DNA of 64,000 nucleotides, from positions 42,667 through 106,666 of the forward strand of contig PLET01000055.1 in assembly GCA_003137095.1 (NCBI GenBank), read 5' to 3'. Position 1 is the first letter of the stretch. Each line of letters opens with the position of its first letter. Under the pieces are notes generated by a model that did no database searches, was not told the origin of the DNA, and worked only from the letters and a program-made list of their open reading frames with translations. The position numbers and the translations under genes were made by a program. The DNA is from Gammaproteobacteria bacterium. Its GTDB lineage: Bacteria > Pseudomonadota > Gammaproteobacteria > Steroidobacterales > Steroidobacteraceae. Shown here piece by piece: positions 43,393-62,191 of this stretch.

Positions 43393-44949
43393 ATGACCGC
43401 CCTGCCAATACCCCGCCTCGCCAGTTCGTCGACACCCTTGCCGCCAGCCGGCGGCACACCGGTTAGCGCTGCACAGAGCCCCGCAGACGCCACGGCACCC
43501 GGCGCGGCCACCGGCCCGGCCACGCCTTTTGCATCGGCCCTGCAGGATGCGAATACGCAGGTCGCCCCCAAGGCGCCGAAGACCGCCAAGCCCGGCACGC
43601 CGTTGCCGGCGGCCGGCAATTCACCGCCGCCGGCGGCCGGCGCGCCGCCGACCAGCGCGCCGCCGGTCGCAGCCGCCGCTGCCACGGCCGCAGCTGCTGC
43701 TGCTGCCGCCACCAGCGCCGGCACCGCCGCGAGCACGGCCGCCGGCCCCGCGGGCAACGTCTCGGCGGTTGCTGCCGCGCTGGCCGTGGCGATCGCCGCC
43801 CGGGGGGGCGCCCCTCACGGCGATCTGCCCGGCGCGACGGCGCCAGGCGGCACGGCAGCGCCAGGCGACACGGCGGCGCCAGGTTCGGGGGCACCGGCCG
43901 CCACCGACGCGCCCGGCGCGTCAGACGGCTCCGGCGCAGAAGCCATTGCGGCCGGTGCGGCGGCGGCAGCCAGCGCCGCCGGCGCGGCGAGTGCCGCAAA
44001 TGCGGCGCCTGCAGCGGCCGCCACCGCGGCAACCGCGAGCGCTTCGGCATCGCAGCTGCCGGGCGCGCCGTCGCGGGCCGCACCGCGCGCAGCGGTGGGC
44101 AGCCCGGCCAATTCGAGCGCATCCGCCAGCGGTCCGGCCGGCGGCAGCACCACGGCCGTGACCGCTCCCGCGGCGCCTGCCGACGCGACGCTGCTCGCGG
44201 CGTCGGCCGCCACCGGCGCCGCCAACGGTACGACCCCGGACGCAGCGGCCGCGATGGCAGCCGGTCCGGTGGCGGCTGCGCTGGCGGCCTCCCTGTCCGG
44301 CAAACCCGGCGTCGCGGCGCCGCCCGTCTCCGGCGTGGAGTCCGACGTTGCGTCCGCGGTGTCCGCCGCCGCGTCCGCGGCCCCCGCCGTCATCCCCGCG
44401 ATGAGCGCCGACCCGCAGGACAAGCCTGCGCACGGCGGCACGGGTAATGGCAACAGCCCGGCGGACGGCGGCGTCGCGGCCGCGCAGAGCGCCGTGAATT
44501 CGACCACCACCGGCGCCGCTCTGCCGCCCTCACTGCAGAAGCTCGACGCACCCGTGGGCAGCGCGGAATTCTCGCAGGGCCTGGCCGAGCGGGTGTCCTA
44601 TCTGGTCAACAACAACCTGGGCAGCGCCACCTTGCAGGTCAGCCCGCCGCAGCTCGGGCCGATCGACATTCGCATCGCCATCCAGGGCGGACACGCACAG
44701 GTCTGGATGAGCGCCACCAGCGCCGTGACTCGCGATGCGCTGTCGTCGAGTTCGACGCAGCTGCGCGAAATGCTGGGCAATCAGGGCTTCGGACAGGTGA
44801 GCGTGGACATCTCGCAGCGCTCGTTCCAGGAGCGCACGTCCTACGCACAGAATTACGACTGGCAGCCGTCCGCGGACCCGGGCAGCACCACGGCCGCCGC
44901 CGCCGCCACGCCCCGCGCCGCACAGGGCGCGCTCGATGCCTATGCCTGA
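43393..44949 (+). CDS. fliK: Flagellar hook-length control protein FliK
   Basis: A 518-residue molecular ruler secreted during hook growth. The C-terminal domain (about 375-500) is recognisable: LPPSLQKLDAPVGSAEFSQG, NNLGSATLQVSPPQLGPIDI and a later MLGNQGFGQVSVDIS. The first 370 residues are Ala/Pro/Gly-rich low complexity, as expected of a ruler but extreme here. The ATG at 43393 lies 18 bases after fliJ. It is the last flagellar gene before the inserted minus-strand block, and its last 10 bases overlap the convergent glycosyltransferase gene. fliL resumes only at 62392. Confidence 0.9.
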   Translation: MTALPIPRLASSSTPLPPAGGTPVSAAQSPADATAPGAATGPATPFASALQDANTQVAPKAPKTAKPGTPLPAAGNSPPPAAGAPPTSAPPVAAAAATAAAAAAAATSAGTAASTAAGPAGNVSAVAAALAVAIAARGGAPHGDLPGATAPGGTAAPGDTAAPGSGAPAATDAPGASDGSGAEAIAAGAAAAASAAGAASAANAAPAAAATAATASASASQLPGAPSRAAPRAAVGSPANSSASASGPAGGSTTAVTAPAAPADATLLAASAATGAANGTTPDAAAAMAAGPVAAALAASLSGKPGVAAPPVSGVESDVASAVSAAASAAPAVIPAMSADPQDKPAHGGTGNGNSPADGGVAAAQSAVNSTTTGAALPPSLQKLDAPVGSAEFSQGLAERVSYLVNNNLGSATLQVSPPQLGPIDIRIAIQGGHAQVWMSATSAVTRDALSSSSTQLREMLGNQGFGQVSVDISQRSFQERTSYAQNYDWQPSADPGSTTAAAAATPRAAQGALDAYA

Positions 44950-46226
44950 GCGCCGCGCGGCACGCCTGCGGCCAGACCCTCCAGCAGATTGCAGGCACGC
45001 TGCAGCGCGCCCGCGGCATCCATGCGCGCCGCGATGTCGCGGGCCCGCTGGCGCAGCGCCGGGTCGTGCAGGATCGTCCCGATGTTCTTCGCCGCACGAC
45101 CGGCCGTGAATTGCGTCCGCGGGATGCTGCGCCCGAGACCCAGCCGCGCGATCCGCCAGGCATTGTCGAATTGATCGTGGCCGCTCGGCACCACGAGTTG
45201 CGGGATGCCGGCCGCGATGGCCTGGGCGAGGGTACCGATGCCGCCGTGATAAACGAGCAGCGAGGCGCGCGGCAGCACGTCGCTGAAGGGCAGGTAGCCG
45301 AAGGCCTGGATGCCGGCGGGCAACCTGCGGGGCAACTGCTGCGGGAAATTGGTCACCAGCATGGCCCGCAGCCTGAGCCGCCGTACGGCCTCCATCGCCT
45401 CGGAAAAGTAGCGCTCCATGGTCGAGGCGGCCGAACCCGGGGTGATGATCACCGGGGGTTCTCCGGCATCGAGGAAGCGTCGGGCCTGCTCGGACATCGG
45501 CTCTGATCCGGTATCCCACAGCGGAAAGCCGACGAGATGGACGTGCGGCGGCCAATCGCGCTGCGGCGCTGCGAACCAGGCCGGGAAAAAGCCGATCACG
45601 CATTGCGGAGAGTGGATCCAGCGGTGCAGCACGCGGTGCACGGGCGGCCGTCCATGCGCTGCCCGCAGGTCGTTGAGCGGCTGCGCCAGATGGTGGTCGA
45701 TCACCGCCCAGTCGACCAGGTTGAAAAAGGCGCGCTTGAACCACATCGGCTGCGCTGACGATATGCGCAGTTGGCCGGCCATGCCCTGATCGATCAGACT
45801 GCGGATGATCGCCGGCTGGACGTGCACCGTGGCGGTGGGAATGCCCAGGATTTCCTGCGCGATGCGCGCGCCGAACGCGATGCTGGAGGCGGCGACCACC
45901 GTGCCGGGCGCCGCCAGCCGTTCGATCAGCCGATACACCGGCGCCATCGCCGGGATGATCACGCGGCGTGCCACCACGCCGAAGCCGCGGCGCGGATGCC
46001 ACAGATCCGGGTCGGCCATCGCCGACTCGGCATCCTCGATCGTGCCCACCGGCAGGAATTCCAGGCCGTGGGCGGTGATCAGCGCTTCGAACCACGGATT
46101 GGTGATGAGGGTGGCCCGGTGGCCGCGGGCGCGCAGTGCGAGGCCGAGGGCGATGAACGGATGCACGTCGCCCGCGCTGCCGAGCGTGGGCAGCAGCACG
46201 TGGAGCGAGGTGGGGCGCTCCGTCAT
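44940..46226 (-). CDS. UGT/MGT-type glycosyltransferase (GT1) of the polyene-like cluster
   Basis: A 428-residue GT-B enzyme of the family that includes sterol glucosyltransferases and rhamnosyltransferase RhlB. The N-terminal acceptor domain begins HVLLPTLGSAGDVHPFIALG. The C-terminal donor domain has VIITPGSAAS, HGGIGTLAQAIAAGIPQLVV and the HDQFDNA nucleotide-sugar site. It should glycosylate a small lipid or polyketide at a hydroxyl; the donor sugar is unknown. It is the last gene of the minus-strand operon, shares one base with the ketoreductase stop, and converges on fliK with a 10-base overlap. Standard aryl polyene clusters usually use a GT2 enzyme, so this extra transferase is notable. 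Confidence 0.85.
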   Translation of the reverse strand: MTERPTSLHVLLPTLGSAGDVHPFIALGLALRARGHRATLITNPWFEALITAHGLEFLPVGTIEDAESAMADPDLWHPRRGFGVVARRVIIPAMAPVYRLIERLAAPGTVVAASSIAFGARIAQEILGIPTATVHVQPAIIRSLIDQGMAGQLRISSAQPMWFKRAFFNLVDWAVIDHHLAQPLNDLRAAHGRPPVHRVLHRWIHSPQCVIGFFPAWFAAPQRDWPPHVHLVGFPLWDTGSEPMSEQARRFLDAGEPPVIITPGSAASTMERYFSEAMEAVRRLRLRAMLVTNFPQQLPRRLPAGIQAFGYLPFSDVLPRASLLVYHGGIGTLAQAIAAGIPQLVVPSGHDQFDNAWRIARLGLGRSIPRTQFTAGRAAKNIGTILHDPALRQRARDIAARMDAAGALQRACNLLEGLAAGVPRGAQA

Positions 46227-46972
46227 CAGGCCATGCCGCCGTTGACCGAAATGATCTGGCCGGTGATGTACGCGGCATCGTCGGAGGCCAGAAACGCGAC
46301 CAGTCCCGCCACCTCCTGCGCCGTGCCGGCGCGCTTCATGGGCACGAGCGCGGCAATCACCGCCGGGTCGAACCCGCCGCCCATGCCGGCCTCGATGATG
46401 CCGGGCGCCACGGCGTTGACGGTGATGCCGCGGCTCGCCACCTCCAGGCTCAAGGCCCTGGCGGCCGAGTTGAGCGCGCCCTTGGCGGCCGCATAATTCA
46501 CCTGGCCGCGATTGCCCATGATGGCGCTGACCGAGGAGATGTTGACGATCCGTCCCCAGCGGGTGCGGATCATGGGCATCAGCAGCGGTTGGGTCACGTG
46601 GTAGAAGCCGTGGACCGCCACGTCGATGACGCTGCGCCACCGGGCCTCGCTCATGCTCGGGAACACCACATCGTCGTGGATGCCGGCATTGTTCACGAGC
46701 ACCTGTATGGGACCCGCCTCGAGCGCCGCCTCGAGCGCCGCGCGCGCCGCCGCGCCATCGGTGACGTCGAAGCAGATCGTCTCGGCGCTGCCGCCGGCGG
46801 CGACGATATCCGCGACCACGGCGGCTGCAGCCGCGGCGCCGCGATGCGCGTGCACGTAGACGTGGTGGCCGCCCCGGCCCAGGCGCCGGCAGATGGCGGC
46901 GCCGATGCCGCCGCTGCCACCGGTGACCAAGGCTCGCCGGGCGCCGGCGCCCGCACCGCCGCCGGTGCTCAT
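46226..46972 (-). CDS. 3-oxoacyl-ACP reductase (FabG-like ketoreductase, aryl polyene type)
   Basis: A 248-residue short-chain dehydrogenase that would reduce the beta-keto group of an ACP-bound chain with NADPH. The cofactor loop is TGGSGGIGAAI. Catalytic Ser is in NISSVSA, and Tyr and Lys are in NYAAAKGAL. NNAG and the C-terminal ITGQIISVNGGMA fit FabG. The ATG at 46972 overlaps the dehydratase stop (ATGA), and the stop overlaps the start of the glycosyltransferase. Operon context points to polyene chain building rather than housekeeping fatty acid synthesis. Confidence 0.9.
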   Translation of the reverse strand: MSTGGGAGAGARRALVTGGSGGIGAAICRRLGRGGHHVYVHAHRGAAAAAAVVADIVAAGGSAETICFDVTDGAAARAALEAALEAGPIQVLVNNAGIHDDVVFPSMSEARWRSVIDVAVHGFYHVTQPLLMPMIRTRWGRIVNISSVSAIMGNRGQVNYAAAKGALNSAARALSLEVASRGITVNAVAPGIIEAGMGGGFDPAVIAALVPMKRAGTAQEVAGLVAFLASDDAAYITGQIISVNGGMA

Positions 46973-47460
46973 GGCGCGAGCCGCGCGGCGGCACCCTGCA
47001 CGATGCTGGCGCGGCCGCTGAGCAGCGGTGTGTGCGCGCCGCGCACCGTGAATTCGTACAGCACGGTGCTGCGATCCCCCGCGATGCGCGTGGCCTCGCA
47101 ATACAGGTCACCCGCCACATCGTCGAGCCGCGACACCTCGAAGCGCACGTCGCGCACGCTCGCCAGCAGGCCGCCGCGCACGCCGGGTGCGTCGGGTGCG
47201 CCGGGTGCGTCGGGTGCGCCGGCGGCGATCAGCGCACCGTGCACGGCCATGGCCTGCGCGGCGTATTCGATGCCGCAGGCGACACCGAGACGGCCGTGCG
47301 TGCGCAGCGGATGATCGGCGGCGCGGTGGCTGGCACTGCGGCAGCAGATGCGCTGCAGATCCCAATGCACCACCTCGTCGAGCAGGCACATGCGCCCCTG
47401 ATGCGGCAGGCGGCTGCTGATCCACCCGTGGTCCAGGCGAACGTCGGGGTCTAGGCGCAC
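46969..47460 (-). CDS. 3-hydroxyacyl-ACP dehydratase, ApeP-like hotdog protein
   Basis: A 163-residue hotdog-fold protein. RLPHQGRMCLLDEVV and CGIEYAAQAMAVHGAL resemble the dehydratases found in aryl polyene and xanthomonadin clusters. It should remove water from a 3-hydroxyacyl-ACP to leave a conjugated double bond. The start is GTG 47460, which overlaps the chain-length-factor stop by 10 bases; its own stop overlaps the ketoreductase start by 4 bases. An in-frame 18-base repeat adds a Gly/Ala/Pro/Asp segment in the middle. Confidence 0.8.
   Translation of the reverse strand: MRLDPDVRLDHGWISSRLPHQGRMCLLDEVVHWDLQRICCRSASHRAADHPLRTHGRLGVACGIEYAAQAMAVHGALIAAGAPDAPGAPDAPGVRGGLLASVRDVRFEVSRLDDVAGDLYCEATRIAGDRSTVLYEFTVRGAHTPLLSGRASIVQGAAARLAP
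47181..47222 (-). repeat. 18-base tandem repeat in the dehydratase gene
   Basis: Units 47181-47198 and 47199-47216 (CGCCGGGTGCGTCGGGTG on the plus strand), with a partial third. They encode repeated GAPDAP. Confidence 0.85.
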
Positions 47461-48248
47461 GGCTCGACCTCGACCAGGGTTCGCGAGCCGTCCAGATACT
47501 CGATGCTGGCCGGGCCGGCCTCGGCGCGCGCCAGACGCGAGAGCAGCGGCAGCGAGCGGGCCGCCGGAATCGACGTGCGCAGCGCCTCGAGCGACCCGTC
47601 GGCGAGACGGTCGCAGGCCGCAGCGCCGAGCCGCGCCTCGATGCGCGCCAACGAGGCGGGCGACCGCTGCGCCGTGAGCGCCAGCGCCATGCCGAAGGCG
47701 TCGGGAATGGGCCGCTTGGCGCGCAGCGGTTCGGGATAATCGGTGTCGTAGGCAACCAGCAGCAACGCCCCGCCGTCGGCGGCGATCTGTGCCAGGGCCT
47801 CGAGCAGGCCGGCGGCGAAACTCGCGTCATAGGCGCACAGCACGGTCGAGGCGCCCACGGCGCCGGTGGCGATGCTCCAGTAGCCGGCCGCGGCGTTGTG
47901 CACCGAATTGGAAAAGCGCGTGGGCGATATCTCGCGCCCGGGTGCGGCGAGTGCCGCGCACAATTCGTGGCAGTTGTTGCCGTCGCCGCCCGAGGAGGAG
48001 AACACGCAGGCCAGCGACTTCGGCTCGGCGCCGGCGCGTCCGGCCGCCTCCAGGGCGACCGCCAGCGCCAGTTTCACCACCCGGCCGGTACGGCGGCGTT
48101 CCGCGGGCGGCAGGATGGCGGGCGGCGGTAGTACGGTGGCGGCGGGCACATAGGCGGTCTCGCCGCGCAGCACGGCGCGCGCCGCGGGCCAGTCGGGCAG
48201 GCCCGGGCCGAGCACACCGATGCCCGCGACGTAGGCGCACAGGCTCAT
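47451..48248 (-). CDS. Beta-ketoacyl synthase chain-length factor
   Basis: A 265-residue protein related to the N-terminal half of ketosynthases, of the type that accompanies a true ketosynthase in aryl polyene clusters. It shows CVFSSSGGDGNNCHELC and FSNSVHNAAAGYWSIATGA, and AYDASFAAGLLEAL near the position of the ketosynthase active site. It lacks the Cys-His-His set, so it should act as a partner that sets chain length rather than as a condensing enzyme. The ATG at 48248 overlaps the ketosynthase stop by 4 bases. Confidence 0.85.
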   Translation of the reverse strand: MSLCAYVAGIGVLGPGLPDWPAARAVLRGETAYVPAATVLPPPAILPPAERRRTGRVVKLALAVALEAAGRAGAEPKSLACVFSSSGGDGNNCHELCAALAAPGREISPTRFSNSVHNAAAGYWSIATGAVGASTVLCAYDASFAAGLLEALAQIAADGGALLLVAYDTDYPEPLRAKRPIPDAFGMALALTAQRSPASLARIEARLGAAACDRLADGSLEALRTSIPAARSLPLLSRLARAEAGPASIEYLDGSRTLVEVEPCA

Positions 48249-49435
48249 GCGGCGCGGCCGAAGAGCAGACTGCAATTGGTGCCGCCAAAGCCGAAGGAAT
48301 TCGACAGCACGCGGTTCGGCGGCGTGCGCCGGTTGTCCTTGAGGTAGCCGGCGCCGAGTTCCGGATCGACGCGGGTCGCAGGCACCCCGCCCGGCATGAA
48401 GCCGTGTTGCAGGGCGAGCGCGCTGATCACGGCTTCGAGCGCGCCGGCGGCGCCGAGGGTGTGGCCGGTGGCGCCCTTGGTGGAACTGCACGGGGTGGTG
48501 CCGCCGAACAACGCGGTGACCGCGAGGCTCTCGGCGCGGTCGTTGCTCGGCGTGCCGGTGCCGTGCAGATTGATGTAATCGACGGCCTCGGGCGGCAGCG
48601 CGGCGGCGGCGAGCGCCGCCTGCATGGCGAGGCGTGCGCCCAGGCCCTGCGGATGCGGTGCCGACATGTGGTGTGCGTCGCACGATTCGCCGATGCCCAG
48701 CAGCACAACGGCGCCGCCGTCCAGGCTCGTCGGACAGCGCTCCAGCCAGGCAAATGCCGCCGCCTCGCCGATGGAGATGCCGTCGCGAGCCACATCGAAC
48801 GGCCGGCAGGGGCCCGGGGAGCAGAGCTGCAGGGAATGAAATCCGTACAAGGTGGTCAGGCAAAGGGAGTCGACGCCACCTACCAGCGCGGCATCGATGA
48901 GTCCGGCCTCGAGCATGCGGCGTGCGCTGGCGAACACCTTGGCGCTGGACGCACAGGCGCAGGACACCACCACGGCAGGCCCGCACAAGTCCAGACGCCG
49001 GCGCACGAAGTCGGCCACGGAAAAGGTGTTGTGGGCGGCGGCATATTGAAAATCATCGGGCAGCGGGCCGCCGGCCACGCGCCGCCGATAGGCGATCTCG
49101 GTCTCGAGGATGCCGGCGGTGCTGGTGCCGATGAACACGCCGACGCGCCGGGGTCCGTACGCGGCGGCGGCGGCACGCACCGCGTCCGCAAAGCCATCCT
49201 GCGACAAACCGAGCTCGGCGAGGCGGTTGTTGCGGCAGTCGTATGCCCGCAATGCCGCCGGAATCCTCACGGCATCGACGCCCGGCACCTCGCCCACGTG
49301 AGTGTGCAGGTCCACGGTCTCGAAGCGGCAGGGCGCCAGGCCGCTGCGCTGCTGCTGCAAAGCCTCGAGGATCTGCGCCAGGCCCCGCCCGATGCAGCTG
49401 ACCGCGGTGAAATGTTTGAGCAGCACGGGTTTCAC
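48245..49435 (-). CDS. Beta-ketoacyl-ACP synthase (ketosynthase, aryl polyene type)
   Basis: A 396-residue condensing enzyme of the FabF/FabB fold. Active-site Cys lies in VSCACASSAK, one His in NLHGTGTPSND and the other in STKGATGHTLGAAGALE. The C-terminal SNSFGFGGTNCSLLFG is typical. It should extend the ACP-bound chain by two carbons from malonyl-ACP, pairing with the chain-length factor encoded next. It starts at GTG 49435 by 4-base overlap with the deacetylase stop. Only one full ketosynthase is present, whereas larger aryl polyene clusters carry two or three. Confidence 0.9.
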   Translation of the reverse strand: MKPVLLKHFTAVSCIGRGLAQILEALQQQRSGLAPCRFETVDLHTHVGEVPGVDAVRIPAALRAYDCRNNRLAELGLSQDGFADAVRAAAAAYGPRRVGVFIGTSTAGILETEIAYRRRVAGGPLPDDFQYAAAHNTFSVADFVRRRLDLCGPAVVVSCACASSAKVFASARRMLEAGLIDAALVGGVDSLCLTTLYGFHSLQLCSPGPCRPFDVARDGISIGEAAAFAWLERCPTSLDGGAVVLLGIGESCDAHHMSAPHPQGLGARLAMQAALAAAALPPEAVDYINLHGTGTPSNDRAESLAVTALFGGTTPCSSTKGATGHTLGAAGALEAVISALALQHGFMPGGVPATRVDPELGAGYLKDNRRTPPNRVLSNSFGFGGTNCSLLFGRAA

Positions 49436-50232
49436 GCGCCCGCCGCCTGGCGCAGGGTGACGGGCGTGAGGCCCGCGGCATCCACGGCGCCGAGCAGCCG
49501 CGGCAGCACGTCGAGAATCACGGCCTCGCCGCCGCGGTTGCGCGCCGCGTTGCCGTCGTGAAGCAGCAGGATGTCGCCGCCGCGCAGCGGCCGCACCAGC
49601 CGGCCGAACACCGCATCGGCGTCGCCGCTGACGGTGTCGAAGCCGCGCCGTGTCCAGCTGGCGAGATGCAATTGCAGCCGCCCCAGCACCGGTTCGAGAA
49701 AGGGGTTGCGCAGCCCGGCGGGCGCGCGGAAGAAACCCGGCCGGGTGCCGGTGATCTCGGCAATGCTGTCCTGCGCGGCACAGATCTCGGCGGCGATCGC
49801 GGCCGGTCCGAGCAGCGAGAAGTAGCGCAGATGACGCTGGCTGTGGTTCTCGATGGAGTGGCCGCGCGCGATGATCTCGCGGGCGAGGGTCGCATGCCGC
49901 CGGACGCGCTCGCCGATGCAGAAGAAGGTGGCCCGCGCGCGGTGCCGCTCGAGCACCGCCAGCACGCGCGGCGTCACCTGCGCGTCCGGACCGTCGTCGA
50001 TGGTGATGGCCACGCCGCCCTGCGCCGCGCTCGCCGCCGGCAGCCGCGTCCAGTTCGGGCCGAGCAGACGGCTGCGCGGCCACAGCCCGGCGGCGGCGAG
50101 CAGCAGGTGATCGGCCAGTACGGCGGACAAGGCCCAGGGCCAGATCCGCGGGCGCGCGATGAGCGCCGCGGCCGCCGCCAGATGCAGGGCGACCGATGCA
50201 GATATGAGCGGGGCGTGCGCCATGGGCCTCAT
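49432..50232 (-). CDS. Polysaccharide deacetylase (NodB-type) with N-terminal membrane anchor
   Basis: A 266-residue protein. Two hydrophobic segments (about 8-26 and 31-51) anchor it to the inner membrane. The NodB domain follows with TIDDGPD (catalytic Asp and metal Asp), HSQRH (HSxxH metal ligands), FFRAPAG and DILLLHDG. It should remove an acetyl or similar group from an amino sugar or ester at the outer face of the membrane. It overlaps the ketosynthase start by 4 bases and follows the MMPL gene by 19 bases. Its place inside a polyene-type operon suggests it trims a glycosylated product; this is inference. Starts at 50232 or 50223 are equally possible. Confidence 0.85.
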   Translation of the reverse strand: MRPMAHAPLISASVALHLAAAAALIARPRIWPWALSAVLADHLLLAAAGLWPRSRLLGPNWTRLPAASAAQGGVAITIDDGPDAQVTPRVLAVLERHRARATFFCIGERVRRHATLAREIIARGHSIENHSQRHLRYFSLLGPAAIAAEICAAQDSIAEITGTRPGFFRAPAGLRNPFLEPVLGRLQLHLASWTRRGFDTVSGDADAVFGRLVRPLRGGDILLLHDGNAARNRGGEAVILDVLPRLLGAVDAAGLTPVTLRQAAGA

Positions 50233-52642: not shown

Positions 52643-53280
52643 GGGGATCCGTGCGGCCGGATGGTCATGAGCGAGTGATCGCCGTCGGGCTGGCGGAAGT
52701 CGACGGTGCGCAGCCCGGCCCCCGCACCGTCGATGCGGATGCCCGCGACGGTCTTTGCCAGGGCCGCGTCCAGGGGTTCGAGCAGCAGGGACCAGCGCTG
52801 CGGATCACCGCGGAATTCGACACGGAACACGCGCTCGAGCGCGGTCCGGTCGCCGGCCAGCGTGGCGCGGATGCTCGCGACGACGGGCAGAATTTGCGGA
52901 TAGCTGCGCAGGTCGATGACCTGGCTGCGACCGCCGCGGCGCAGGGTGAGCACGTCGCCGGCGAGCAGCAGGGTCTCCGGGCGCGGCTGCAGCGTGCGCT
53001 TCTCCAGGTGATCGGGCGCGTCGTACACCAGCTCGCCCCAGGACTCCAGCGGCCGCTTGAGCATGCCGAGAAACTGCTGCTCGACGAAACTCGCCTCGGC
53101 GTGCCGGCGCGCGGCGAGGAGACCCATCACCGCGCCGAACTCGTCGGCGGCGGGCGTGGCGGGCACGGCGGGCACGGCGGGCGTGGTGGGCACGTTGGGC
53201 GTGGCGCACACGGCGGGCGTGGCGCACACGGCGGCGGCGCACTGCAGGGTCAGCAGGACGGCGAGGCCGCGCCGCATCAT
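52639..53280 (-). CDS. LolA-like periplasmic lipid carrier
   Basis: A 213-residue secreted protein of the LolA/LolB fold. The Sec signal is MMRRGLAVLLTLQCAAAVCA or thereabouts. Next comes a Pro/Ala/Val/Thr repeat segment (about 20-45), then the carrier core with RHAEASFVEQQFLGMLKRPL and VYDAPDHLEKRTLQP. In aryl polyene clusters such a protein is proposed to ferry the product to the outer membrane together with the MMPL pump. An 18-base in-frame duplication lies at the probable cleavage region. It overlaps the acyltransferase stop and MMPL start by 4 bases on each side. Confidence 0.8.
   Translation of the reverse strand: MMRRGLAVLLTLQCAAAVCATPAVCATPNVPTTPAVPAVPATPAADEFGAVMGLLAARRHAEASFVEQQFLGMLKRPLESWGELVYDAPDHLEKRTLQPRPETLLLAGDVLTLRRGGRSQVIDLRSYPQILPVVASIRATLAGDRTALERVFRVEFRGDPQRWSLLLEPLDAALAKTVAGIRIDGAGAGLRTVDFRQPDGDHSLMTIRPHGSP
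53197..53232 (-). repeat. 18-base tandem repeat at the LolA-like signal peptide end
   Basis: Two perfect units, 53197-53214 and 53215-53232, GGGCGTGGCGCACACGGC on the plus strand. They encode two copies of a VCATPA-type segment. Shorter GTG/ACG-varied units continue to about 53150. Confidence 0.85.
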
Positions 53281-54191: not shown

Positions 54192-54198
54192 CAGGAGC

Positions 54199-54504
54199 CT
54201 AGATGCGCGCCGCTGGCAGCAGCACACCCGTCGCGACCGCGCGGCCCGCGCTGCTCACGGTGAAGCGTATCGAGCCATTGTCGAGCGCTTCATGCGTGAG
54301 CTCGAGCGCCTCGCCGGGCCGCACCACGCCGAGAAACTTGGCGGAGCCGATGCGGTAGCGCGGCACATCGGCACCGCGCGCGGCTGCGATGGCGTGCAGC
54401 GCCTCATCGAGCAGCACGACACCGGGCAGGATGGGCATGCCCGGAAAATGGCCGGGGAAGGCCGGATGCGCGGCCGGGATCTCGATCAGCGCGTGTTCGA
54501 TCAT
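54199..54504 (-). CDS. Small hotdog 3-hydroxyacyl-ACP dehydratase, ApeI-like
   Basis: A 101-residue FabZ-like protein. AAHPAFPGHFPGMPILPGVV contains the HFPG motif with the catalytic His. KFLGVVRPGEALELTHE follows. It is shorter than FabZ and matches the small dehydratases of aryl polyene clusters. The ATG at 54504 overlaps the ligase stop by 4 bases. With the 163-residue dehydratase it gives the cluster two dehydration enzymes. Confidence 0.85.
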   Translation of the reverse strand: MIEHALIEIPAAHPAFPGHFPGMPILPGVVLLDEALHAIAAARGADVPRYRIGSAKFLGVVRPGEALELTHEALDNGSIRFTVSSAGRAVATGVLLPAARI

Positions 54505-55928
54505 ACGCCGCCAGGCGGCGGGTCCTGGCGCTCGAGGTCCTGGCGCTCGAGGTCCTGGCGCTCGAGGTTGTGCCGGTCGAGCACGGCCAGCAGCGAATCG
54601 CGCGGCAGCTTGCCGGTGGCGTTGCGCGGCAGCGCGTCGACCAGCAGCAATGGCCTCGGCAGGAACACCGGATCGATGCGCAGACGCAGTTCGGCGGTGA
54701 TGGCCGCGGCGCTCAATGCGGGCGCCACCGCCACGGCGGCGAGGCGCGTGACGGCGCCGTCGGGCGGCGCGGCCTCGGGCTGGAAGAATGCGCCGTCGGA
54801 AACGCCGTCGATGGCGTTCAGCTGATGATTCAGGAAGCCGAAGGAGCTGCGCTTGCCGGCGATGTTCACCAGATCGGCGGTGCGCCCATGCAGACGGAAG
54901 GTATCCGGGCCGGTGATCTCGATCACGTCGGCGAGCGCGGTGGGGCGTCCGACATGACCGCCTGCGGCGAAGGTGTCCCCGGCGCGGCAGACCAGCTGCA
55001 CCCCGGGCCAGAGCGTCCAGACGTCGGTGTCGCGCGTGCGGCGCGTGGCGATCTGGCCGGTCTCGGTGGAACCATAGATCTCCAGCAGCGGGGCCGCGAA
55101 GCGCGCCTCGACATCGCGTGCGAGCTCGCGGCTGAGCGGTGCGGTCGCCGAGACGATCAGATCGGTGGGCAGATCGAGGCCGGCGGCCAGCAGTGTGCGC
55201 AGGTGGACGGGCGTGGTCACCAGCACGCGCGGCCGCGGGGCGGCGGCGAGGGCGGCGCACACGTCGGCCGGATAAAAGGGCCGCTCGGCCGCGAATGAGC
55301 CGCCGTTCAGCAGCGGCAGAAGCACGGTCGATTCGAAGCCGTACATGTGCTGCGCAGGCACCGTGCCGACGATGGCGAACGGCGCTCCGCCGGCCAGCCC
55401 GAGCAGCGCGGCGCCGCTCTGCACGCAGTGCACCAGGCTGCCCCAGGTCTTGGCGTGCGGCACCGGCGCTCCGGTCGAGCCCGAGGTGTAGAGGATGGCG
55501 GCGGTCTGCGCAGGATCGAGACGCGGCATGCTCCAAGTCGCTGCCGACGCCGGCCCGCGCCGGTAGTGCACGCGCTCAAGATCGATGTCGCATCGTTCAT
55601 CGTCGGTCAGGCAGAGGGCATCGGGGGTGGAGGCGGCGAGCTGCCGGATTGCCTCGGGCGTGCGGGTGCCGGGCATGAGGCTGATTTTCCGCGACACCAG
55701 ACAGGCGGCCAGGCCGACCGCGAAGTGATACCGGTCGGCGCAGACGTTGAGCACGTGGGTGCCGGACGGCAGTCGCGCGGCCAGGTGGCGCACATCGGCG
55801 AGAAATTGCCGCGCGCTCACCGGCTCCCCCGCACAGTGGGCGATCACCGCGGCCGGTGAGTGATGCGAAAACAGCGGGACCGTTGCGGATGCGCCTGACG
55901 CCCGCTCACTTGGTTCTGTGTTGGGCAA
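54501..55928 (-). CDS. Acyl/aryl-ACP ligase (adenylate-forming, aryl polyene type)
   Basis: A 475-residue ANL-family enzyme. Core motifs: ILYTSGSTGAPVPHAK (145-160), YGSTETG, GRTADLVNIAGKR and LPRNATGKLPR with the catalytic Lys. It should activate a carboxylic acid, probably an aryl starter, as an adenylate and load it on the adjacent ACP. The start is TTG 55928, overlapping the ACP gene by 23 bases. The C-terminus carries three copies of LERQD from a 15-base repeat. The starter substrate cannot be read from the sequence, and no gene for making an aryl acid is in the window. Confidence 0.85.
   Translation of the reverse strand: MPNTEPSERASGASATVPLFSHHSPAAVIAHCAGEPVSARQFLADVRHLAARLPSGTHVLNVCADRYHFAVGLAACLVSRKISLMPGTRTPEAIRQLAASTPDALCLTDDERCDIDLERVHYRRGPASAATWSMPRLDPAQTAAILYTSGSTGAPVPHAKTWGSLVHCVQSGAALLGLAGGAPFAIVGTVPAQHMYGFESTVLLPLLNGGSFAAERPFYPADVCAALAAAPRPRVLVTTPVHLRTLLAAGLDLPTDLIVSATAPLSRELARDVEARFAAPLLEIYGSTETGQIATRRTRDTDVWTLWPGVQLVCRAGDTFAAGGHVGRPTALADVIEITGPDTFRLHGRTADLVNIAGKRSSFGFLNHQLNAIDGVSDGAFFQPEAAPPDGAVTRLAAVAVAPALSAAAITAELRLRIDPVFLPRPLLLVDALPRNATGKLPRDSLLAVLDRHNLERQDLERQDLERQDPPPGGV
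54521..54565 (-). repeat. 15-base tandem repeat (three copies) in the ligase 3' end
   Basis: Three perfect units of GGTCCTGGCGCTCGA (plus strand) at 54521-54535, 54536-54550 and 54551-54565. They encode three LERQD pentapeptides after the catalytic C-terminal subdomain. Confidence 0.9.
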
Positions 55929-56208
55929 CGTAGGTGCCTAGCTGGCTGAGCGAGCGGAAGATCTGCTGGTTTTCCGGGCTGTCGGCGCGCAGTTGGATGC
56001 CGTATTGTTTCGACAGCAGCAGGGCAACTTCGAGGATGTCGATCGAGTCCAGACCGAGGCCCTCGCCGTACAGCGGCGCATCGGGATCGATGTCGCCGGC
56101 GGCCACCTCGAGATTCAGGGCCTGCACCAGCAGTTCGGCGATTTCGCGTTGCAGACCCGCATCGGCCGGCGACGCCGCCGGCTTCATGAGCGACGCATTG
56201 TCGGGCAT
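55906..56208 (-). CDS. Acyl carrier protein of the polyene-like cluster
   Basis: A 100-residue carrier protein. Ser55 in GLGLDSIDILE is the likely phosphopantetheine attachment site, followed by an acidic helix II. It begins with a disordered tail of about 15 residues. The start at ATG 56208 has no clear ribosome site; a longer form beginning near 56242 is possible but would start at the promoter. It overlaps the ligase by 23 bases. It is the only ACP seen here, whereas E. coli and Xenorhabdus aryl polyene clusters have two. Confidence 0.87.
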   Translation of the reverse strand: MPDNASLMKPAASPADAGLQREIAELLVQALNLEVAAGDIDPDAPLYGEGLGLDSIDILEVALLLSKQYGIQLRADSPENQQIFRSLSQLGTYVAQHRTK

Positions 56209-56255: not shown

Positions 56256-57017
56256 TTACAGATTGCGCAGGCGGCGCTTCGCCAACAGCGGCAGCCGCGG
56301 CAAAAACCCGGCAAACAGCCGCACGTACATCCAGGTCAGCAGGATGTTGTCGCGCACGTAGTTGAAGTGCGACACGCCGCCCTCCTCCGGCCGGAAGTAG
56401 CGCACCGCCGCCGGCAGATTGGCGGGCAAGACGCCCCGCCAGCACAGCCGCACAGCCGCCTCGGCATCGAAGTCGAAGTGCCGCATCCACGGCTGCCCGC
56501 GCATCACCTCGACCAGCGCGTCGATCGGATAGACGCGAAAGCCGAACAGCGAATCGCCGATGCCGGCCCACAGCGTGAAGAGGTTGGCCCACCAGTTGGA
56601 AATCTTGCGGCCCTGGACGCGGATGTTCGGCGCGCTGCCGTCGAAGACCGGCAGCCCCAGCACCATGGCTCCGGGCTGCGCCGCCGAAGCACGCATGAAC
56701 TCCGGGATGCGTTCCGCGGGATGCTGGCCGTCGGCGTCCATGGTCAGGGCGTGCGTGTAGCCTTGGGCGAGCGCAGCGCGCAACCCGTCGAGCACCGCTG
56801 CACCCTTGCCGCGATTCTCGGCATTGACGATGACGTGCAGGCCGGGCTCGTTCGCGGCCAGCGCCGTGAGCGTGCGGTCCGAGCCGTCCGTGCTGCCGTC
56901 CACGACCACCCATACCGGGTTCCACTGGCTCAGGGCGTCGCGCACGGTTCCGAGCAGCTTCGAACCCGGGTTGTAGCTTGGGATCAGCACGATATGGGTG
57001 TTCGATGGGGTGGCCAT
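56256..57017 (-). CDS. Family 2 glycosyltransferase
   Basis: A 253-residue GT-A enzyme. IPSYNPG begins the nucleotide-binding fold, VVDGSTDGS follows, and the DxD-type motif is in TMDADGQHP. A later FDFDAEAAVRLCWRG and a C-terminal hydrophobic, basic tail suggest membrane association. It should transfer a sugar from a nucleotide or polyprenyl donor to the cluster's lipid. The ATG at 57017 lies one base after the mipA stop, so it is read from the mipA transcript. A gap of 47 bases then separates it from the ACP gene. ATG 57017 is preferred over codons upstream that read through mipA. Confidence 0.85.
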   Translation of the reverse strand: MATPSNTHIVLIPSYNPGSKLLGTVRDALSQWNPVWVVVDGSTDGSDRTLTALAANEPGLHVIVNAENRGKGAAVLDGLRAALAQGYTHALTMDADGQHPAERIPEFMRASAAQPGAMVLGLPVFDGSAPNIRVQGRKISNWWANLFTLWAGIGDSLFGFRVYPIDALVEVMRGQPWMRHFDFDAEAAVRLCWRGVLPANLPAAVRYFRPEEGGVSHFNYVRDNILLTWMYVRLFAGFLPRLPLLAKRRLRNL

Positions 57018-57018
57018 T

Positions 57019-57876
57019 TCAGGGCGCGTCCCGCCCGGATCGCCCGAGCATCCACACGATTGCGACGCCTGAGGACCAGTAACGGTCGCGCAGCACCAGC
57101 GGACTTGGGTCGAAGACCGCGCCGGCGAGGGTGTCGAAGCGCACGTACGCGCCCACCCAATAGGCGGGGAAGCGCTTCGACAGCGCGGCCAGCGCCTGCG
57201 TGCCCGCATAACCGCCCGGCGCCTGATACGCCGGCCGGCCCGGCAGGGCATAGCGCGGCGCAACGGAATAAAAATAATCATCGTAGCGGCGATCTTGGAA
57301 CAACGGACCGCCGAGCAGCCCGAGCTTCAAGCCGGGCACGCCGAATGCGTCCGCCAGGTCCACGGCGGCGCGCGGCTCGAAGTCCCAGCCGATGTCGTGC
57401 GGCGACGCCTCGACGGTGTAGGCGATGCGCAGCGGCAGACGCAGATCGATTTTCACGCGGCCATCCTCGGTGCGCAGCAAGGTCAGATCCAGCGACGGTC
57501 CGATTTCGACCGTGGATCGCAGATCGGGCATGCCGCCGCGGGCGCTGTTGTTGCGCACCGGGGTGGTGGCATTGGCGCTCAGGCTCAGATCCACCCGGTC
57601 CTGATCGAACAACTGGCCGCGCACGCCGTCGCGATCGGCCTTGAGGAATTCGCCGTTGTAGAGCAGATAGGGCACCGGCAGGGGATATACGTGCGACGTG
57701 TCGGCGCCGCGATAGTCGGCGAAGCCGATGGCGCCCACGCCCAGGCCGTATTCCCACAGCGGTTCGGCAATGCCCGGGCGCGGCGCCGCGAGGGCGCCGA
57801 TCATCGCGGCGGCGAGACCGGCGCCGCGCCGCCGCGCCGCCGCGCGGGCGGGCGTCGAGAGCGTGTCGGGCGCCAT
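57019..57876 (-). CDS. mipA: MipA/OmpV family outer-membrane protein
   Basis: A 285-residue beta-barrel. A signal peptide covers about the first 38 residues. Barrel strands begin LWEYGLGVGAIGFADYRGAD and SHVYPLPVPYLLYNGEFLKA, both characteristic. The C-terminus ends in SSGVAIVWMLG plus a short tail rather than the usual terminal Phe. MipA-type proteins scaffold murein enzymes or act as envelope porins; the precise role varies. It is divergent from the response regulator gene across 43 bases, a common arrangement in which the two-component pair controls it, and precedes the GT2 gene by one base. Confidence 0.87.
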   Translation of the reverse strand: MAPDTLSTPARAAARRRGAGLAAAMIGALAAPRPGIAEPLWEYGLGVGAIGFADYRGADTSHVYPLPVPYLLYNGEFLKADRDGVRGQLFDQDRVDLSLSANATTPVRNNSARGGMPDLRSTVEIGPSLDLTLLRTEDGRVKIDLRLPLRIAYTVEASPHDIGWDFEPRAAVDLADAFGVPGLKLGLLGGPLFQDRRYDDYFYSVAPRYALPGRPAYQAPGGYAGTQALAALSKRFPAYWVGAYVRFDTLAGAVFDPSPLVLRDRYWSSGVAIVWMLGRSGRDAP

Positions 57877-57899
57877 ACATTTGGCCTCGTCGGGTCCTT

Positions 57900-57917: not shown

Positions 57918-57919
57918 CC

Positions 57920-58600
57920 ATGCGTATATTGATCGTCGAAGATGACGAAGTCGCCCGCGACTACCTCGCCAAGGCCCTGCGCGAGGTCGGGCACACGGTG
58001 GACGTCGCCACCAACGGCCTGGACGGACTGCAGATGGCCTCCTCGGTCGCCGTCGACCTCGCCATCGTGGACCGGATGCTGCCCCAGCTCGACGGACTGG
58101 CACTGGTGCAGTCGCTGCGCGCCACCGGCCGCAAGATGCCGGTGCTGATCCTGAGCGCGCTCGGTGAGGTCGATGACCGCATCACGGGCCTGCGCGCCGG
58201 CGGCGACGATTACCTGACCAAGCCGTATCACATGTCCGAGCTGCTGGCGCGCATCGACGCGCTCGCCCGGCGCGGGGAGTCGGGCATTCACGACAGCACC
58301 AAGCTGAAACTGGCCGACCTCGAACTCGACCGCATGACCCGGCGCGTGACGCGCAACGGCAAGAAGATCGAGCTCACGGCACGCGAATTCCAGCTGCTGG
58401 AATTCATGATGCGCCACAGCGGGCAGGTGGTCACGCGCACCATGCTGCTAGAGGGCGTGTGGGATTATCACTTCGATCCGCAGACCAACGTGATCGACGT
58501 GCACATCAGCCGCCTGCGCCAGGCCATCGACAAGGACTTCGACAAGCCGCTGCTGCACACCGTGCGCGGTGCGGGCTACAGTCTGCGCGAAGACGAATAG
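57920..58600 (+). CDS. OmpR-family response regulator
   Basis: A 226-residue DNA-binding response regulator. The receiver has EDD (7-9), phospho-acceptor Asp51 in IVDRMLP and Lys101 in LTKPY. The winged-helix domain ends HISRLRQAIDKDFDKPLLHT and VRGAGYSLRED, typical of OmpR/PhoB. It is paired with the kinase whose GTG start overlaps its stop by one base. The likely targets are the divergent mipA operon and perhaps the polyene-like genes; this is inferred from arrangement. Confidence 0.92.
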   Translation: MRILIVEDDEVARDYLAKALREVGHTVDVATNGLDGLQMASSVAVDLAIVDRMLPQLDGLALVQSLRATGRKMPVLILSALGEVDDRITGLRAGGDDYLTKPYHMSELLARIDALARRGESGIHDSTKLKLADLELDRMTRRVTRNGKKIELTAREFQLLEFMMRHSGQVVTRTMLLEGVWDYHFDPQTNVIDVHISRLRQAIDKDFDKPLLHTVRGAGYSLREDE

Positions 58601-59970
58601 TGAGCGCCGATCAGCGATTCATCGGGGTCATCAACAGCTCGCCGTTCCGCATCTCGATGCTGTATTCGACCGCCTTTGCCTGCGGCGCGGCCATTCTGCT
58701 CGGCGCGGTGTATTTCGCCGTCACCCAGGTGGTGGATGGCGGCACCGACAATCTGATCGAGGCCGAGGTTCAGGGATTGCGCGAACAGGTGCTGGTGCTG
58801 TCGCGCAGCGACTTCATCGAGCTGATCGAGCAGCGCTCGCAGGAGCAGGACGTGCGCGGCGCGGTTTACCTGATGGTCGACCCGCAGCTGCGGCCGGTGG
58901 CCGGCAACGTTCCGGCCTGGCCGAAGATCGCCGCCAACGAGGGCAAGTGGATCCAGTTCAAGGTGTCGGTGCCCTACGGCGACGAGACGCGCGAGCACGA
59001 AATGCGCGCGCAGCGCTTCCCGCTGCCCGGCGGCTACCGCATGCTGGTCGGACACGACGTGCAGGAGCGGCAGAACGTCAAGAATCTGATGATGCGCGGC
59101 CTGGTGGCGGCGGTGGTGGCCACCCTGATGCTCGGCCTGGGCGGCGGATATTGGATGGGGCGGCGTATCCTCGCGCAGGCCGGCGCCATCTCCGCGGTGG
59201 CGACCCAGATCATGCGCGGCGATCTGTCGCAGCGGCTGCCGGTGCGCGATGCGGACGATGAGATCAACACCCTGGCGCTGGAAATCAACAGCATGCTCGA
59301 CAAGATCGAACAGCTCACCCTCGGCATGCGCACGGTGCTCGACAGCGCGGCGCATGATCTGCGCACGCCGCTCAACCGCCTGCAGTCGAGCGCCGAGGCG
59401 GCGATGAGCCAGCTCGCGCCGTCGGCGCCCGAGCGGCGCGTGCTCGAGCGGGTGACCACCGAGGTGGATCGGATGCGCGGCACGCTGGATGCGCTGCTGC
59501 GCATCGCGCTGGCCGAGACCGGCACCGTGGCGCGCGAGTCGGTGGATCTGTCCGAATTGGTGGCGAGCATGGTGGAGCTGTACGAGCCGGTGAGCGAGGA
59601 GCGCGGCATCGTGCTGGAGAGCGCCGTGGCCGCCGGCGCGCACGTGCAGGGCAGCCGCCAGCTGCTGGCGCAGGCGCTCGCCAATCTGCTGGATAATGCC
59701 ATCAAGTTCACTCCGGGCGGCGGCCACATCCGGGTGCAGCTGCAAAGCGCCGCCGGCGGACCGGAGGTGGTGGTCGAGGACGACGGGCCCGGCATACCGG
59801 CCGACAAACGCGAGATCGTGCTCGGGCGGCGGGTGCGGCTGGACGAGGCCCGCAAGTTTCCCGGCTCCGGCCTGGGGCTGTCGCTGGTGGCCGCGGTCAC
59901 CAAGCTGCATGGCGCACGGCTGGTGCTCGATGATGCCGCCCCTGGACTGCGCGTCTCGTTGAAGTTCTAA
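58600..59970 (+). CDS. Membrane sensor histidine kinase (EnvZ/PhoQ-like layout)
   Basis: A 456-residue kinase. Two transmembrane segments (about 20-45 and 165-190) enclose a periplasmic sensor of about 120 residues with no recognised fold. A HAMP linker (RILAQAGAISAVATQIMRGD) leads to His252 in DSAAHDLRTPL. The catalytic domain has LLDNAIKF, EDDGPGIP and GSGLGLSLV. It starts at GTG 58600, overlapping the regulator's TAG stop. It probably senses an envelope signal. Confidence 0.9.
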   Translation: MSADQRFIGVINSSPFRISMLYSTAFACGAAILLGAVYFAVTQVVDGGTDNLIEAEVQGLREQVLVLSRSDFIELIEQRSQEQDVRGAVYLMVDPQLRPVAGNVPAWPKIAANEGKWIQFKVSVPYGDETREHEMRAQRFPLPGGYRMLVGHDVQERQNVKNLMMRGLVAAVVATLMLGLGGGYWMGRRILAQAGAISAVATQIMRGDLSQRLPVRDADDEINTLALEINSMLDKIEQLTLGMRTVLDSAAHDLRTPLNRLQSSAEAAMSQLAPSAPERRVLERVTTEVDRMRGTLDALLRIALAETGTVARESVDLSELVASMVELYEPVSEERGIVLESAVAAGAHVQGSRQLLAQALANLLDNAIKFTPGGGHIRVQLQSAAGGPEVVVEDDGPGIPADKREIVLGRRVRLDEARKFPGSGLGLSLVAAVTKLHGARLVLDDAAPGLRVSLKF

Positions 59971-60016
59971 TCGGGACTCTCGTTTAATGCCACCCCCTCC
60001 TGAGGACAAACCCTTC

Positions 60017-62191
60017 ATGCGTCAATTAGGTACCGCCGCGGTTCTGATCGCCCTTGCCGCCTGCTCCAAGCCGCCGGCGCCACCACCGCCCGCGCCGCCC
60101 GCGCCGCCCCCCGTGGTGCTGCTGTCCGGCGTCGACACCCGGTACGTCGACGTGTCGGTGCGTCCGCAGGACGACATCTACCGGCATTTGAACGGCAAAT
60201 GGCTGGACACCTTCAAGATCCCGCCGGACCGCGGCGTGTACGTGTCGTTCACCGAGGTGAGCGACCGCACCGACGATCAGCTGCGCACCCTGGTCGAGGG
60301 GCTGGCCGCGGCGGCGACGCCTGCGCCGGGCGCGGACACGGCCGGCACCGGCGCAGTCGCGGGGACCGGCACCGGCGCAGTCGCGGGGACCGGCACCGGC
60401 GCAGTCGCGGGGACCGCCACCGCCACCGGCGCCGATCCGGCCGCGCAAGCCGACGCGCGCAAAATAGCCGATCTGTATGCGAGCTTCATGGACGAGCCGA
60501 GGCTCGAGTCGCTCGGCCTGCAGCCGCTCATGCCGGAATTCGCCGCGATCGACGCGCTCAAGGACAAGCGGGAGATTCCGGCGCTGATCGCGCATCTGAA
60601 CCAAAGCGGTGCCGACGCACCCTATGATTTCGATGTCGAACAGGATGCGCGCGATTCGACCAAGTATGCGGTGAACATCGGCCAGAGCGGATTGGGCATG
60701 CCCGATCGCGACTATTATCTCAAGCCGGATGCGAAGCTCGCCGCGGTGCGAACCCAGTATCTCGCGCACGTTCAGACGATGCTCGCCATGGCCGGCGCGA
60801 AGAATGCGGCCGTGCAGGCGGCCGCCATCTTCAAGCTGGAAAAGTCCTTGGCCGAGATCCAATGGACCAAGGTCGAGAATCGCGATCCGGTCAAGACCTA
60901 CAACAAGACGCCGCTCGCGGATCTCGGCAAGCTCACGCCGGGCTACGACTGGCAGGCCTATCTGACCGGCACGGGCATCGCGGGCAAGGTCGATTACGTG
61001 ATCATCAACCAGCCGAGCTACTTCACCGGGCTCGCCCGCATCGTGAAGTCGACGCCGCTGCCGGTGTGGAGGGAGTATTTCAAATGGCGCGTGCTGTCCG
61101 CCGACGCCCCGTATCTGTCGAAAACGTTCGCCGACGAGCGCTTCGCGTTCAGCGGCACGGCGCTGCGCGGCATACCGGAGAACCGGCCGCGCTGGAAGCG
61201 CGGCGTGATGCTGGTGGACGGCGCCATCGGCGAGGCGCTCGGCAGACTGTACGTGGCGAAATATTTCCCGCCGGAGAACAAGGCGCGCATCGAGGCGCTG
61301 GTGCACAACCTGATCGAAGCCTACCGCCTCGACATCGACACGCTCGATTGGATGGGTCCGCAGACCCGCAAAGGCGCCCAGGAGAAGCTCAACAAGCTGG
61401 TGACCAAGATCGGCTATCCGAGCAAGTGGCGCGATTACAGCAACCTTAAAATCAGCCGCGACGACCTCCTGGGCAACGTGCAGCGCGCCACGGTGTTCGA
61501 ATTCCTGCGCAACCTCGACAAGCTCGGCAAGCCGATCGACCGCGAGGAATGGGAGATGACGCCGCAGACCGTCAACGCCTATTACCAGCCGCTGATGAAT
61601 GAAATCGTATTTCCGGCCGCCATCCTGCAACCGCCGTTCTTCGACGTGAAGGCCGACGACGCGGTCAATTTTGGCGCGATCGGCGGGGTGATCGGCCATG
61701 AGATCAGCCACGGCTTCGACGATCAAGGCAGCCAGTTCGACGCCGACGGCAATCTGCACGACTGGTTCACCAAGGAGGACCACGAGAAGTTCGCCGCCAG
61801 GACCAAGGCGCTGGCGGCACAGTACGACGCCTACGAGCCGGTACCGGGATTCCACGTCAATGGCGAACTCACCCTCGGGGAGAACATCGCCGACAATTCC
61901 GGGCTCGCCATCGCCGACAAGGCCTACAAGCTCTCGCTCGGCGGCAAGGAGGCCCCCGTCATCGACGGCTTCAGCGGCGAGCAGCGCCTGTTCTACGGCT
62001 GGGTGCAGGGCTGGCGGGGCAAGTCGCGCGAGAACGAGGCCATCGTGCGCATCAAGACCGATCCGCATTCACCGCCGTCGGTGCGGGGCACGGCGCCGGT
62101 GCGCAACCAGGCGGGCTTCTATGCCGCCTTCGGAGTCAAACCGGGCGACAAGATGTATCTGGCGCCGGAACAGCGGGTCACCATCTGGTAG
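60017..62191 (+). CDS. pepO: M13-family metallopeptidase lipoprotein (PepO/neprilysin-like)
   Basis: A 724-residue zinc endopeptidase. A lipoprotein signal ends in LIALAAC, followed by a run of Pro/Ala. Zinc ligands lie in HEISH (561-565), with the third ligand Glu622 in GENIADN. NAYYQPLMNEIVFPAAILQP is the conserved substrate groove. It should degrade peptides in the periplasm. I start at ATG 60017 behind GAGGA; an ATG 10 codons earlier would spoil the signal. A 24-base unit repeated three times adds GTGAVAGT copies at about residues 110-133, an odd insertion for the family. It ends before two hairpins and the fliL promoter. Confidence 0.93.
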   Translation: MRQLGTAAVLIALAACSKPPAPPPPAPPAPPPVVLLSGVDTRYVDVSVRPQDDIYRHLNGKWLDTFKIPPDRGVYVSFTEVSDRTDDQLRTLVEGLAAAATPAPGADTAGTGAVAGTGTGAVAGTGTGAVAGTATATGADPAAQADARKIADLYASFMDEPRLESLGLQPLMPEFAAIDALKDKREIPALIAHLNQSGADAPYDFDVEQDARDSTKYAVNIGQSGLGMPDRDYYLKPDAKLAAVRTQYLAHVQTMLAMAGAKNAAVQAAAIFKLEKSLAEIQWTKVENRDPVKTYNKTPLADLGKLTPGYDWQAYLTGTGIAGKVDYVIINQPSYFTGLARIVKSTPLPVWREYFKWRVLSADAPYLSKTFADERFAFSGTALRGIPENRPRWKRGVMLVDGAIGEALGRLYVAKYFPPENKARIEALVHNLIEAYRLDIDTLDWMGPQTRKGAQEKLNKLVTKIGYPSKWRDYSNLKISRDDLLGNVQRATVFEFLRNLDKLGKPIDREEWEMTPQTVNAYYQPLMNEIVFPAAILQPPFFDVKADDAVNFGAIGGVIGHEISHGFDDQGSQFDADGNLHDWFTKEDHEKFAARTKALAAQYDAYEPVPGFHVNGELTLGENIADNSGLAIADKAYKLSLGGKEAPVIDGFSGEQRLFYGWVQGWRGKSRENEAIVRIKTDPHSPPSVRGTAPVRNQAGFYAAFGVKPGDKMYLAPEQRVTIW
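60344..60415 (+). repeat. 24-base tandem repeat (three perfect copies) in pepO
   Basis: Units 60344-60367, 60368-60391 and 60392-60415 are identical. They are in frame and encode GTGAVAGT three times in a variable loop near the N-terminus. Confidence 0.92.

Follow-up and report, generated by a model that had tools for sequence, protein, structure and literature searches.

An aryl-polyene-type operon and other genes between fliK and fliL in Steroidobacteraceae: probable layered cargo at a tolerated boundary of two flagellar transcription units

The genes fliK and fliL are neighbours in flagellar loci of the Pseudomonas type. Here we describe a genus of the Steroidobacteraceae (hereafter g1) in which, by contrast, the two genes stand kilobases apart. 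The locus lies in a stretch of 64,000 nucleotides from contig PLET01000055.1 of assembly GCA_003137095.1 (G000:C30:42667-106666, hereafter the window), and the source genome comprises 4.7 Mb in 129 contigs with 91.8% completeness. In this stretch an aryl polyene (APE)-type operon, a mipA gene, a two-component pair and an M13-family peptidase gene lie between fliK and fliL. In the part of the account of the Pseudomonas regulon considered here, fliL is a class II gene (sigma 54 and FleQ) and fliK a class III gene (sigma 54 and FleR), so that in a regulon of this type a shared transcript of the two is not needed (PMC8036289). The closest described counterpart of the operon is the APE cluster of Escherichia coli CFT073, apeA to apeR; its gene table lists two acyl carrier proteins (ACPs), and apeR is perhaps exempt from the required set, at least in the sections of the source drawn on here (PMC8253772). 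We found no published description of the present arrangement, judged by titles and abstract openings. We consider it very probable that these genes are layered cargo, lodged at a tolerated boundary of two flagellar transcription units and inherited vertically.

The flagellar genes fliE to fliK end at position 44949 and fliL begins at 62392. The 17.4 kb between them are almost wholly coding, with 14 minus-strand genes (the APE-type operon and mipA) followed by three plus-strand genes (response regulator, kinase and M13 peptidase), and the only notable non-coding gaps, of 43 and 200 bp, precede the response regulator gene and fliL, respectively. The minus-strand run extends from mipA (57876) to a GT28 glycosyltransferase gene whose end, at 44940, overlaps that of fliK by 10 bp. 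Several gene starts in the interval are uncertain; with its genes overlapping or tightly spaced, the run looks like a single operon. An earlier sequence-only reading had placed polyene-like genes, MipA, a two-component pair and an M13 peptidase between fliK and fliL, and Pfam annotation confirmed both this content and the two boundaries (fliK, 43393..44949, plus strand, Flg_hook 4e-17; fliL, 62392..62952, plus strand, FliL 6.3e-25), with the 10-bp overlap as a small correction.

We compared this junction among relatives in a set of 98 genomes including the source genome, 58 of which have FliL. Stretches upstream of fliL from 40 of the 57 other FliL genomes were searched with the window proteins: 13 from g1, two from the sister genus g3 and 25 from elsewhere, the last being sorted by eye. 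The set left out G001, G017, G028, G033, G039, G042, G047, G051, G061, G063, G066, G069, G075, G077, G087, G088 and G090, with G001 and G017 read separately. The block was absent from all 25 fliL loci outside g1 and g3. In 17 of these, fliK and fliL were adjacent, with 213-1023 bp between the matches (small genes there were not looked for), and G026 had no fliK match, yet its fliJ-fliL distance was 1.4 kb. Three of the 25 carried one or two other genes at the junction: G045 has a PALP-family enzyme together with a small frame, G034 has an aldo/keto reductase, and a similar frame was recognised by eye in G053. In G067 and G080 the space between fliK and fliL, about 4 kb, is taken up by other genes, and fliL was separate from fliK in G032 and G058. 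In g1, the separation ranged from about 5 kb (G003) to 22 kb (G021) where both genes were on one fetched contig. This comparison bears out the proposal of the sequence-only reading that the genes were inserted into a conserved junction. Given that the boundary is also broken or filled in other lineages, it suggests that the site is insertion-tolerant in this family, as far as this one boundary goes. An assembly artefact was rejected, because 12 other same-genus metagenome-assembled genomes (MAGs) share the fliK-APE junction; an assembly break within the block, a doubt that the sequence-only reading had itself raised, is thereby made very unlikely. Elsewhere in these loci, an unresolved residue beside a short repeat in an flhB-looking frame beyond the window (L152:9029-9412) is perhaps a scaffold gap, and G018 has chemotaxis-like frames (CheY-, CheB-, CheW- and CheA-like, by eye) between fliJ and fliK (L156:3214-12477).

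A predicted sigma-54 -24/-12 element (TGGCAC-N5-TTGCT, 62335..62350, plus strand) precedes fliL in the window and matches the consensus at 11 of 11 positions. Taking the best-scoring 16-mer within up to 700 bp upstream of the FliL match in 41 loci (the 40 and the source), we found such a match in all 41, 40 of them at 10 or 11 of 11 positions and G032 at nine. In a control of 200 shuffles, the score of G032 was equalled by 9.5% and those of the other loci by at most 1.5%. Since the predicted site is common to genera and families, including loci with the junction intact, it most likely predates the insertion. Its presence before fliL in all loci also implies that the insertion would have fallen between two transcription units. 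In other words, the earlier statement that the block splits the flagellar operon was misleading. The accompanying claim that fliL has its own RpoN promoter stands as a predicted site and fails as a rescue after insertion, since junction-intact relatives have one too. Other signals were near expectation (seven terminator-like sites against 6.7 expected, one promoter-like site against 1.0), and the folded stretch at 62180-62290 had a z of -1.8.

The genes between fliK and fliL do not seem to travel as one block, as they had been taken to do, because their parts are spread differently: the two-component pair is found in g1 and g3, the APE operon and the M13 gene in g1, and the GT28 gene at the junction only in the source genome. 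In both g3 genomes the pair is the only part of the block at the junction, accompanied in G024 by a PALP gene between fliK and fliL and in G048 by other small frames. The PALP proteins of G024 and G045 share 63% identity (L073:15963-16940 and L081:17117-18184; genera g3 and g24), and this enzyme is perhaps an older cargo layer. Within g1, G003 has the order fliK-mipA-pair-M13-fliL without APE genes. The APE operon lies next to fliK in all 12 other same-genus genomes that have flagellar genes and this APE lineage (G004, G007, G008, G009, G010, G013, G017, G018, G019, G020, G021 and G022). Of the 22 same-genus genomes, 11 have mipA as far as seen, and these belong to a single one of two g1 groups. 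The M13 gene was next to the kinase or fliL in 15 of the 22; it was not seen there in G006, G007, G012, G014, G016, G017 and G021, some of which are limited by contig ends. In G021, a KatG-reading peroxidase and a MASE1-PAS-GGDEF protein replace M13 between kinase and fliL (L066:14012-18588). The closest relatives of the GT28 protein, at 60-65% identity, are on other contigs in four of the 22 genomes (G002, G006, G009 and G020).

To follow descent, trees with FastTree local supports were built for the two-component pair, eight APE proteins and six flagellar proteins, after dropping fragments below 45% of the query, proteins below 60% (pair), 40% (APE) or 35% (flagellar) identity and genomes with fewer than two APE genes. 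The block's APE proteins group in a single clade with a local support of 1.00, the nearest other APE clade being from g6 and g18, and the same two g1 groups appear in the kinase-pair, APE and flagellar trees. From this clade and these shared groups, the g1 ancestor most likely already possessed the APE operon. G003, G011, G012 and G001 (72-94% complete) have only a ketosynthase at about 35-38% identity, and have most likely lost the operon or are incomplete. Within the interval, conservation is highest in the two-component pair: relative to the source genome, the regulator has a median identity of 91% and the kinase one of 84%, compared with 51-72% for the APE proteins and 87% for FliI. These medians leave out G006, G016 and other genera, and the regulator values include one of 27%, most likely a paralogue.

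The pair comprises an OmpR-type, CzcR/CopR-like response regulator assigned by Pfam (57920..58600) and a sensor histidine kinase with HAMP, HisKA and HATPase_c domains (58600..59970), both on the plus strand. Both fall short of the curated NCBIfam cut-offs of the CzcRS/CopRS heavy-metal family, with 248 bits of 279 for the regulator (cztR_silR_copR) and 184 of 293 for the kinase. No conserved regulator box was found before the response regulator in 23 compared sequences. A TAAGAT at 57906-57911, about 8 nt before the regulator start codon, is exact in 10 of the 23 with variants in the others (by eye), and its position hints at a leaderless transcript. The M13-family metallopeptidase gene follows (59987..62191, plus strand; PF05649 2.7e-122, PF01431 9.1e-69), and its 5' part contains tandem 24-bp repeats (60342-60432).

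All genes of the putative operon are on the minus strand. It starts with the MipA-family gene (57019..57876; MipA 6.1e-34), a GT2 glycosyltransferase (56256..57017; PF00535 1.6e-19), a single ACP (55906..56208; PP-binding 1.4e-8) and an ApeH-like AMP-dependent ligase of uncertain start (54501..55928; AMP-binding 1.5e-21). There follow a FabA-like dehydratase, ApeI-like by position (54199..54504; FabA 1.6e-6, with 6qsr_A a weak match at E 0.0042 behind several FabZ chains), a Lip_A_acyltrans-family acyltransferase of uncertain start (53277..54227; PF03279 9.5e-9), an ApeL-like LolA-type carrier (52639..53280; LolA_3 6.7e-23, and NCBIfam LolA2_flexi 4.4e-10, under its cut-off) and an ApeM-like MMPL/RND exporter (50252..52642; PF03176 4.9e-20). 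After a polysaccharide deacetylase-family gene (49432..50232; PF01522 1.8e-26) come the ApeO-like ketosynthase (48245..49435; PDB 7f28_B 2.9e-75 and 6qsp_A 5.6e-70; NCBIfam NF006618 538.9 bits, cut-off 407) and the ApeC-like chain-length factor (47451..48248; Ketoacyl-synt_2 1.4e-30; PDB 7f28_A 5e-8 and 6qsp_B 6.1e-7), these PDB chains being the top two matches of each. The ApeP-like dehydratase (46969..47460) matched 6qsr_B at 5.7e-9 with a profile of 15 homologues, single-sequence searches giving no significant match. An ApeQ-like ketoreductase of uncertain start (46226..46963; adh_short 2.4e-50) and the GT28/UGT-type glycosyltransferase (44940..46226; EryCIII-like_C 1.2e-19, Glyco_transf_28 1.5e-9) complete the run. 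We take 6qsp to be the ApeO:ApeC complex and 6qsr the ApeI:ApeP complex.

This set resembles the E. coli CFT073 cluster, as far as the sections of PMC8253772 drawn on here describe it, in its ketosynthase and chain-length factor, ligase, ACP, two dehydratases, ketoreductase, acyltransferase, LolA-like protein and RND exporter, and the gene order is that of the E. coli table except for the chain-length factor. In contrast to that cluster, the present operon has additional deacetylase-family (absent from that table), GT28 and MipA genes and sits between flagellar operons, and counterparts of ApeG, ApeK, ApeN and ApeR were not seen in the window. In particular, the annotated genes of the block include no ApeK thioesterase, ApeR initiation ketosynthase or ApeN-like gene. 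A 210-residue membrane protein at the ApeG position, between ACP and ligase, occurs in G002, G007, G013, G017, G020 and G027; it has no Pfam match over the cut-off and found no match in G004, G005 and G008. Several relatives have a PlsC-like acyltransferase gene beside GT2. Queries with this gene and the membrane-protein gene found no match in the window or the rest of the source genome; the negative for the rest of the genome carries no internal control, though the same queries match relatives. In the four genomes examined (G002, G007, G009 and G020), an extra gene lies between MMPL and deacetylase, with below-cut-off hydrolase matches (the G007 gene being the one scanned), and the window has no room for one at this place.

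We also analyzed what happens to the cargo where the flagellum is missing. Matches to FliL and FliG are absent from six of the 22 same-genus genomes (G002, G005, G006, G014, G015 and G016), five of which are 96-99% complete and one, G014, 71%. The kinase is kept in all six at 79-87% identity, and this APE lineage in four (G002, G005, G014 and G015). In the kinase-pair tree these six are scattered over five positions among flagellated relatives, and for this reason we read the absence as probable loss. In G015, one contig carries M13, kinase, regulator, the APE operon without mipA, rimO, uvrA, glgC and coaX, in the order and orientation expected after deleting the flagellar genes from the window's order, and G005 has a similar arrangement across two contigs. 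The G015 sequence past M13 had no counterpart downstream of fliL in stretches from G009, G018, G007, G003, G019 and the source contig. In G016, the two-component pair stands head to head with rimO with no APE genes between them. In G002, the block lies beside tuf, nusG and ribosomal-protein frames (read by eye), so that its surroundings have changed too. Separately, G016 has two kinase copies, 80-81% identical to the window's kinase (L112:6836-8895 and L113:3206-4549). A study of Xanthomonas fuscans 4834-R reportedly found flagellar motility to be no general feature of xanthomonads, and likewise flagella are not general in g1. The suggestion that pigment or lipid synthesis is tied to motility is not supported, given these retained genes; the cargo looks like a tolerated lodger that is no part of the motility machinery.

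If the whole block were instead a single genomic island that interrupted an operon and brought or evolved a new fliL promoter, 17.4 kb of unrelated functions at a junction intact elsewhere would be readily accounted for. However, the sigma-54 match is also found where the junction is intact, the parts differ in spread and some relatives have the two-component pair by itself, and on the differing spread we rejected a single insertion of one island. The annotated interval genes also include no integrase or transposase, and the flanks, scanned singly, showed only short degenerate repeats beyond the tandem repeat in the M13 gene. We therefore regard this explanation as extremely improbable. A tRNA-Arg (CCG) called by ARAGORN inside the kinase gene (59833-59911) was considered as an integration target and rejected as most likely a false positive; it has no Rfam match and is uncalled in the kinase genes of the relatives scanned. 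Another possibility is that the location was selected, the cargo being co-regulated with motility, for example via the two-component system or via antisense between the convergent fliK and APE operon. The position kept in the 12 other genomes speaks for this, as do the convergent ends of fliK and the APE operon, whose stop-to-stop distance is -10 to +14 bp in 10 of 13 genomes, and an APE cluster with mipA in g9 (G030, L116:17576 to L117:11559) about 6 kb past flagellar-motor-like frames, on a contig that carries fliL. However, the other three gaps are 69-388 bp, and short convergent gaps are common, with nine of 34 pairs at 14 bp or less in 19 stretches, a count based on rough gene calls that include some wrong pairs. 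The compact junction, with gaps no longer than 14 bp in all of the initial 10 genomes and in 10 of 13 once three more were added, was thus rejected as a signal of constraint. Moreover, the six genomes without FliG and FliL keep the kinase, the APE cluster of G031 (g10) is 2 Mb from fliL, and those of G048 (g3), G058 and G039 (g18) are on contigs other than that of fliL, a placement that gives no distance. Co-regulation is therefore very unlikely. A more elaborate form is, in our view, highly improbable: the convergent ends would act as a reciprocal antisense switch that restrains hook-length control and motility in pigment-making cells. Its state would be set by the two-component system, and this switch would have decayed to regulator and pigment genes in non-flagellated relatives.

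The product of the operon is a further point of doubt. It could be another lipid or polyketide (xanthomonadin- or flexirubin-like) instead of a standard aryl polyene, or none any more, as the missing ape counterparts and the extra deacetylase-family and GT28 genes would allow. We consider this unlikely, given that the reading frames are open, that 6qsp chains are the second-best PDB match of both ketosynthase and chain-length factor, and that 6qsr_B is the best match of one dehydratase. Several observations weigh against vertically inherited, layered cargo as we describe it. The node joining g6 and g18 to the block's APE clade has a support of only 0.40, the g1 node of the kinase-pair tree has 0.48, and the flagellar-tree node grouping the source genome apart from G003 and G011 has 0.06, many genomes being represented there by a single gene. 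The APE genes of G006 and G016 lie outside the block's clade, so that the function has also been gained and lost. In addition, the relatives identifiable from their records are all MAGs, and an operon without the PlsC-like, membrane-protein and thioesterase genes and a second ACP may have an altered product or none.

Taking these points together with the evidence for layered cargo, we propose that the boundary between the unit ending with fliK and the unit starting at the fliL sigma-54 promoter tolerates insertions in the Steroidobacteraceae. The two-component system would have arrived before the split of g1 and g3, the APE-type operon and the M13 peptidase would have joined in g1, and the glycosyltransferase would have been added in the source genome. 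Most probably, the AMP ligase would activate an aromatic acid and load it onto the ACP, and the ketosynthase/chain-length-factor pair, the ketoreductase and the dehydratases would extend the chain. The acyltransferase and GT2 protein may then attach the polyene to a glycolipid, and the MMPL and LolA-like proteins may pass the product to the outer membrane. As fliL has an older and presumably active promoter of its own, the insertions would leave flagellar expression undisturbed. The cargo would serve the envelope and outlast the flagellum.

This locus cautions against reading gene neighbourhood as a functional linkage of pigment and motility. The intermediate states, the intact outgroup state and the non-flagellated genomes that keep the cargo all occur within one family. 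We suggest that the fliK-fliL boundary of the Steroidobacteraceae illustrates how unrelated cargo may accumulate within a conserved machine encoded by several operons and leave it intact, namely at a boundary between units of which the second already has its own promoter.

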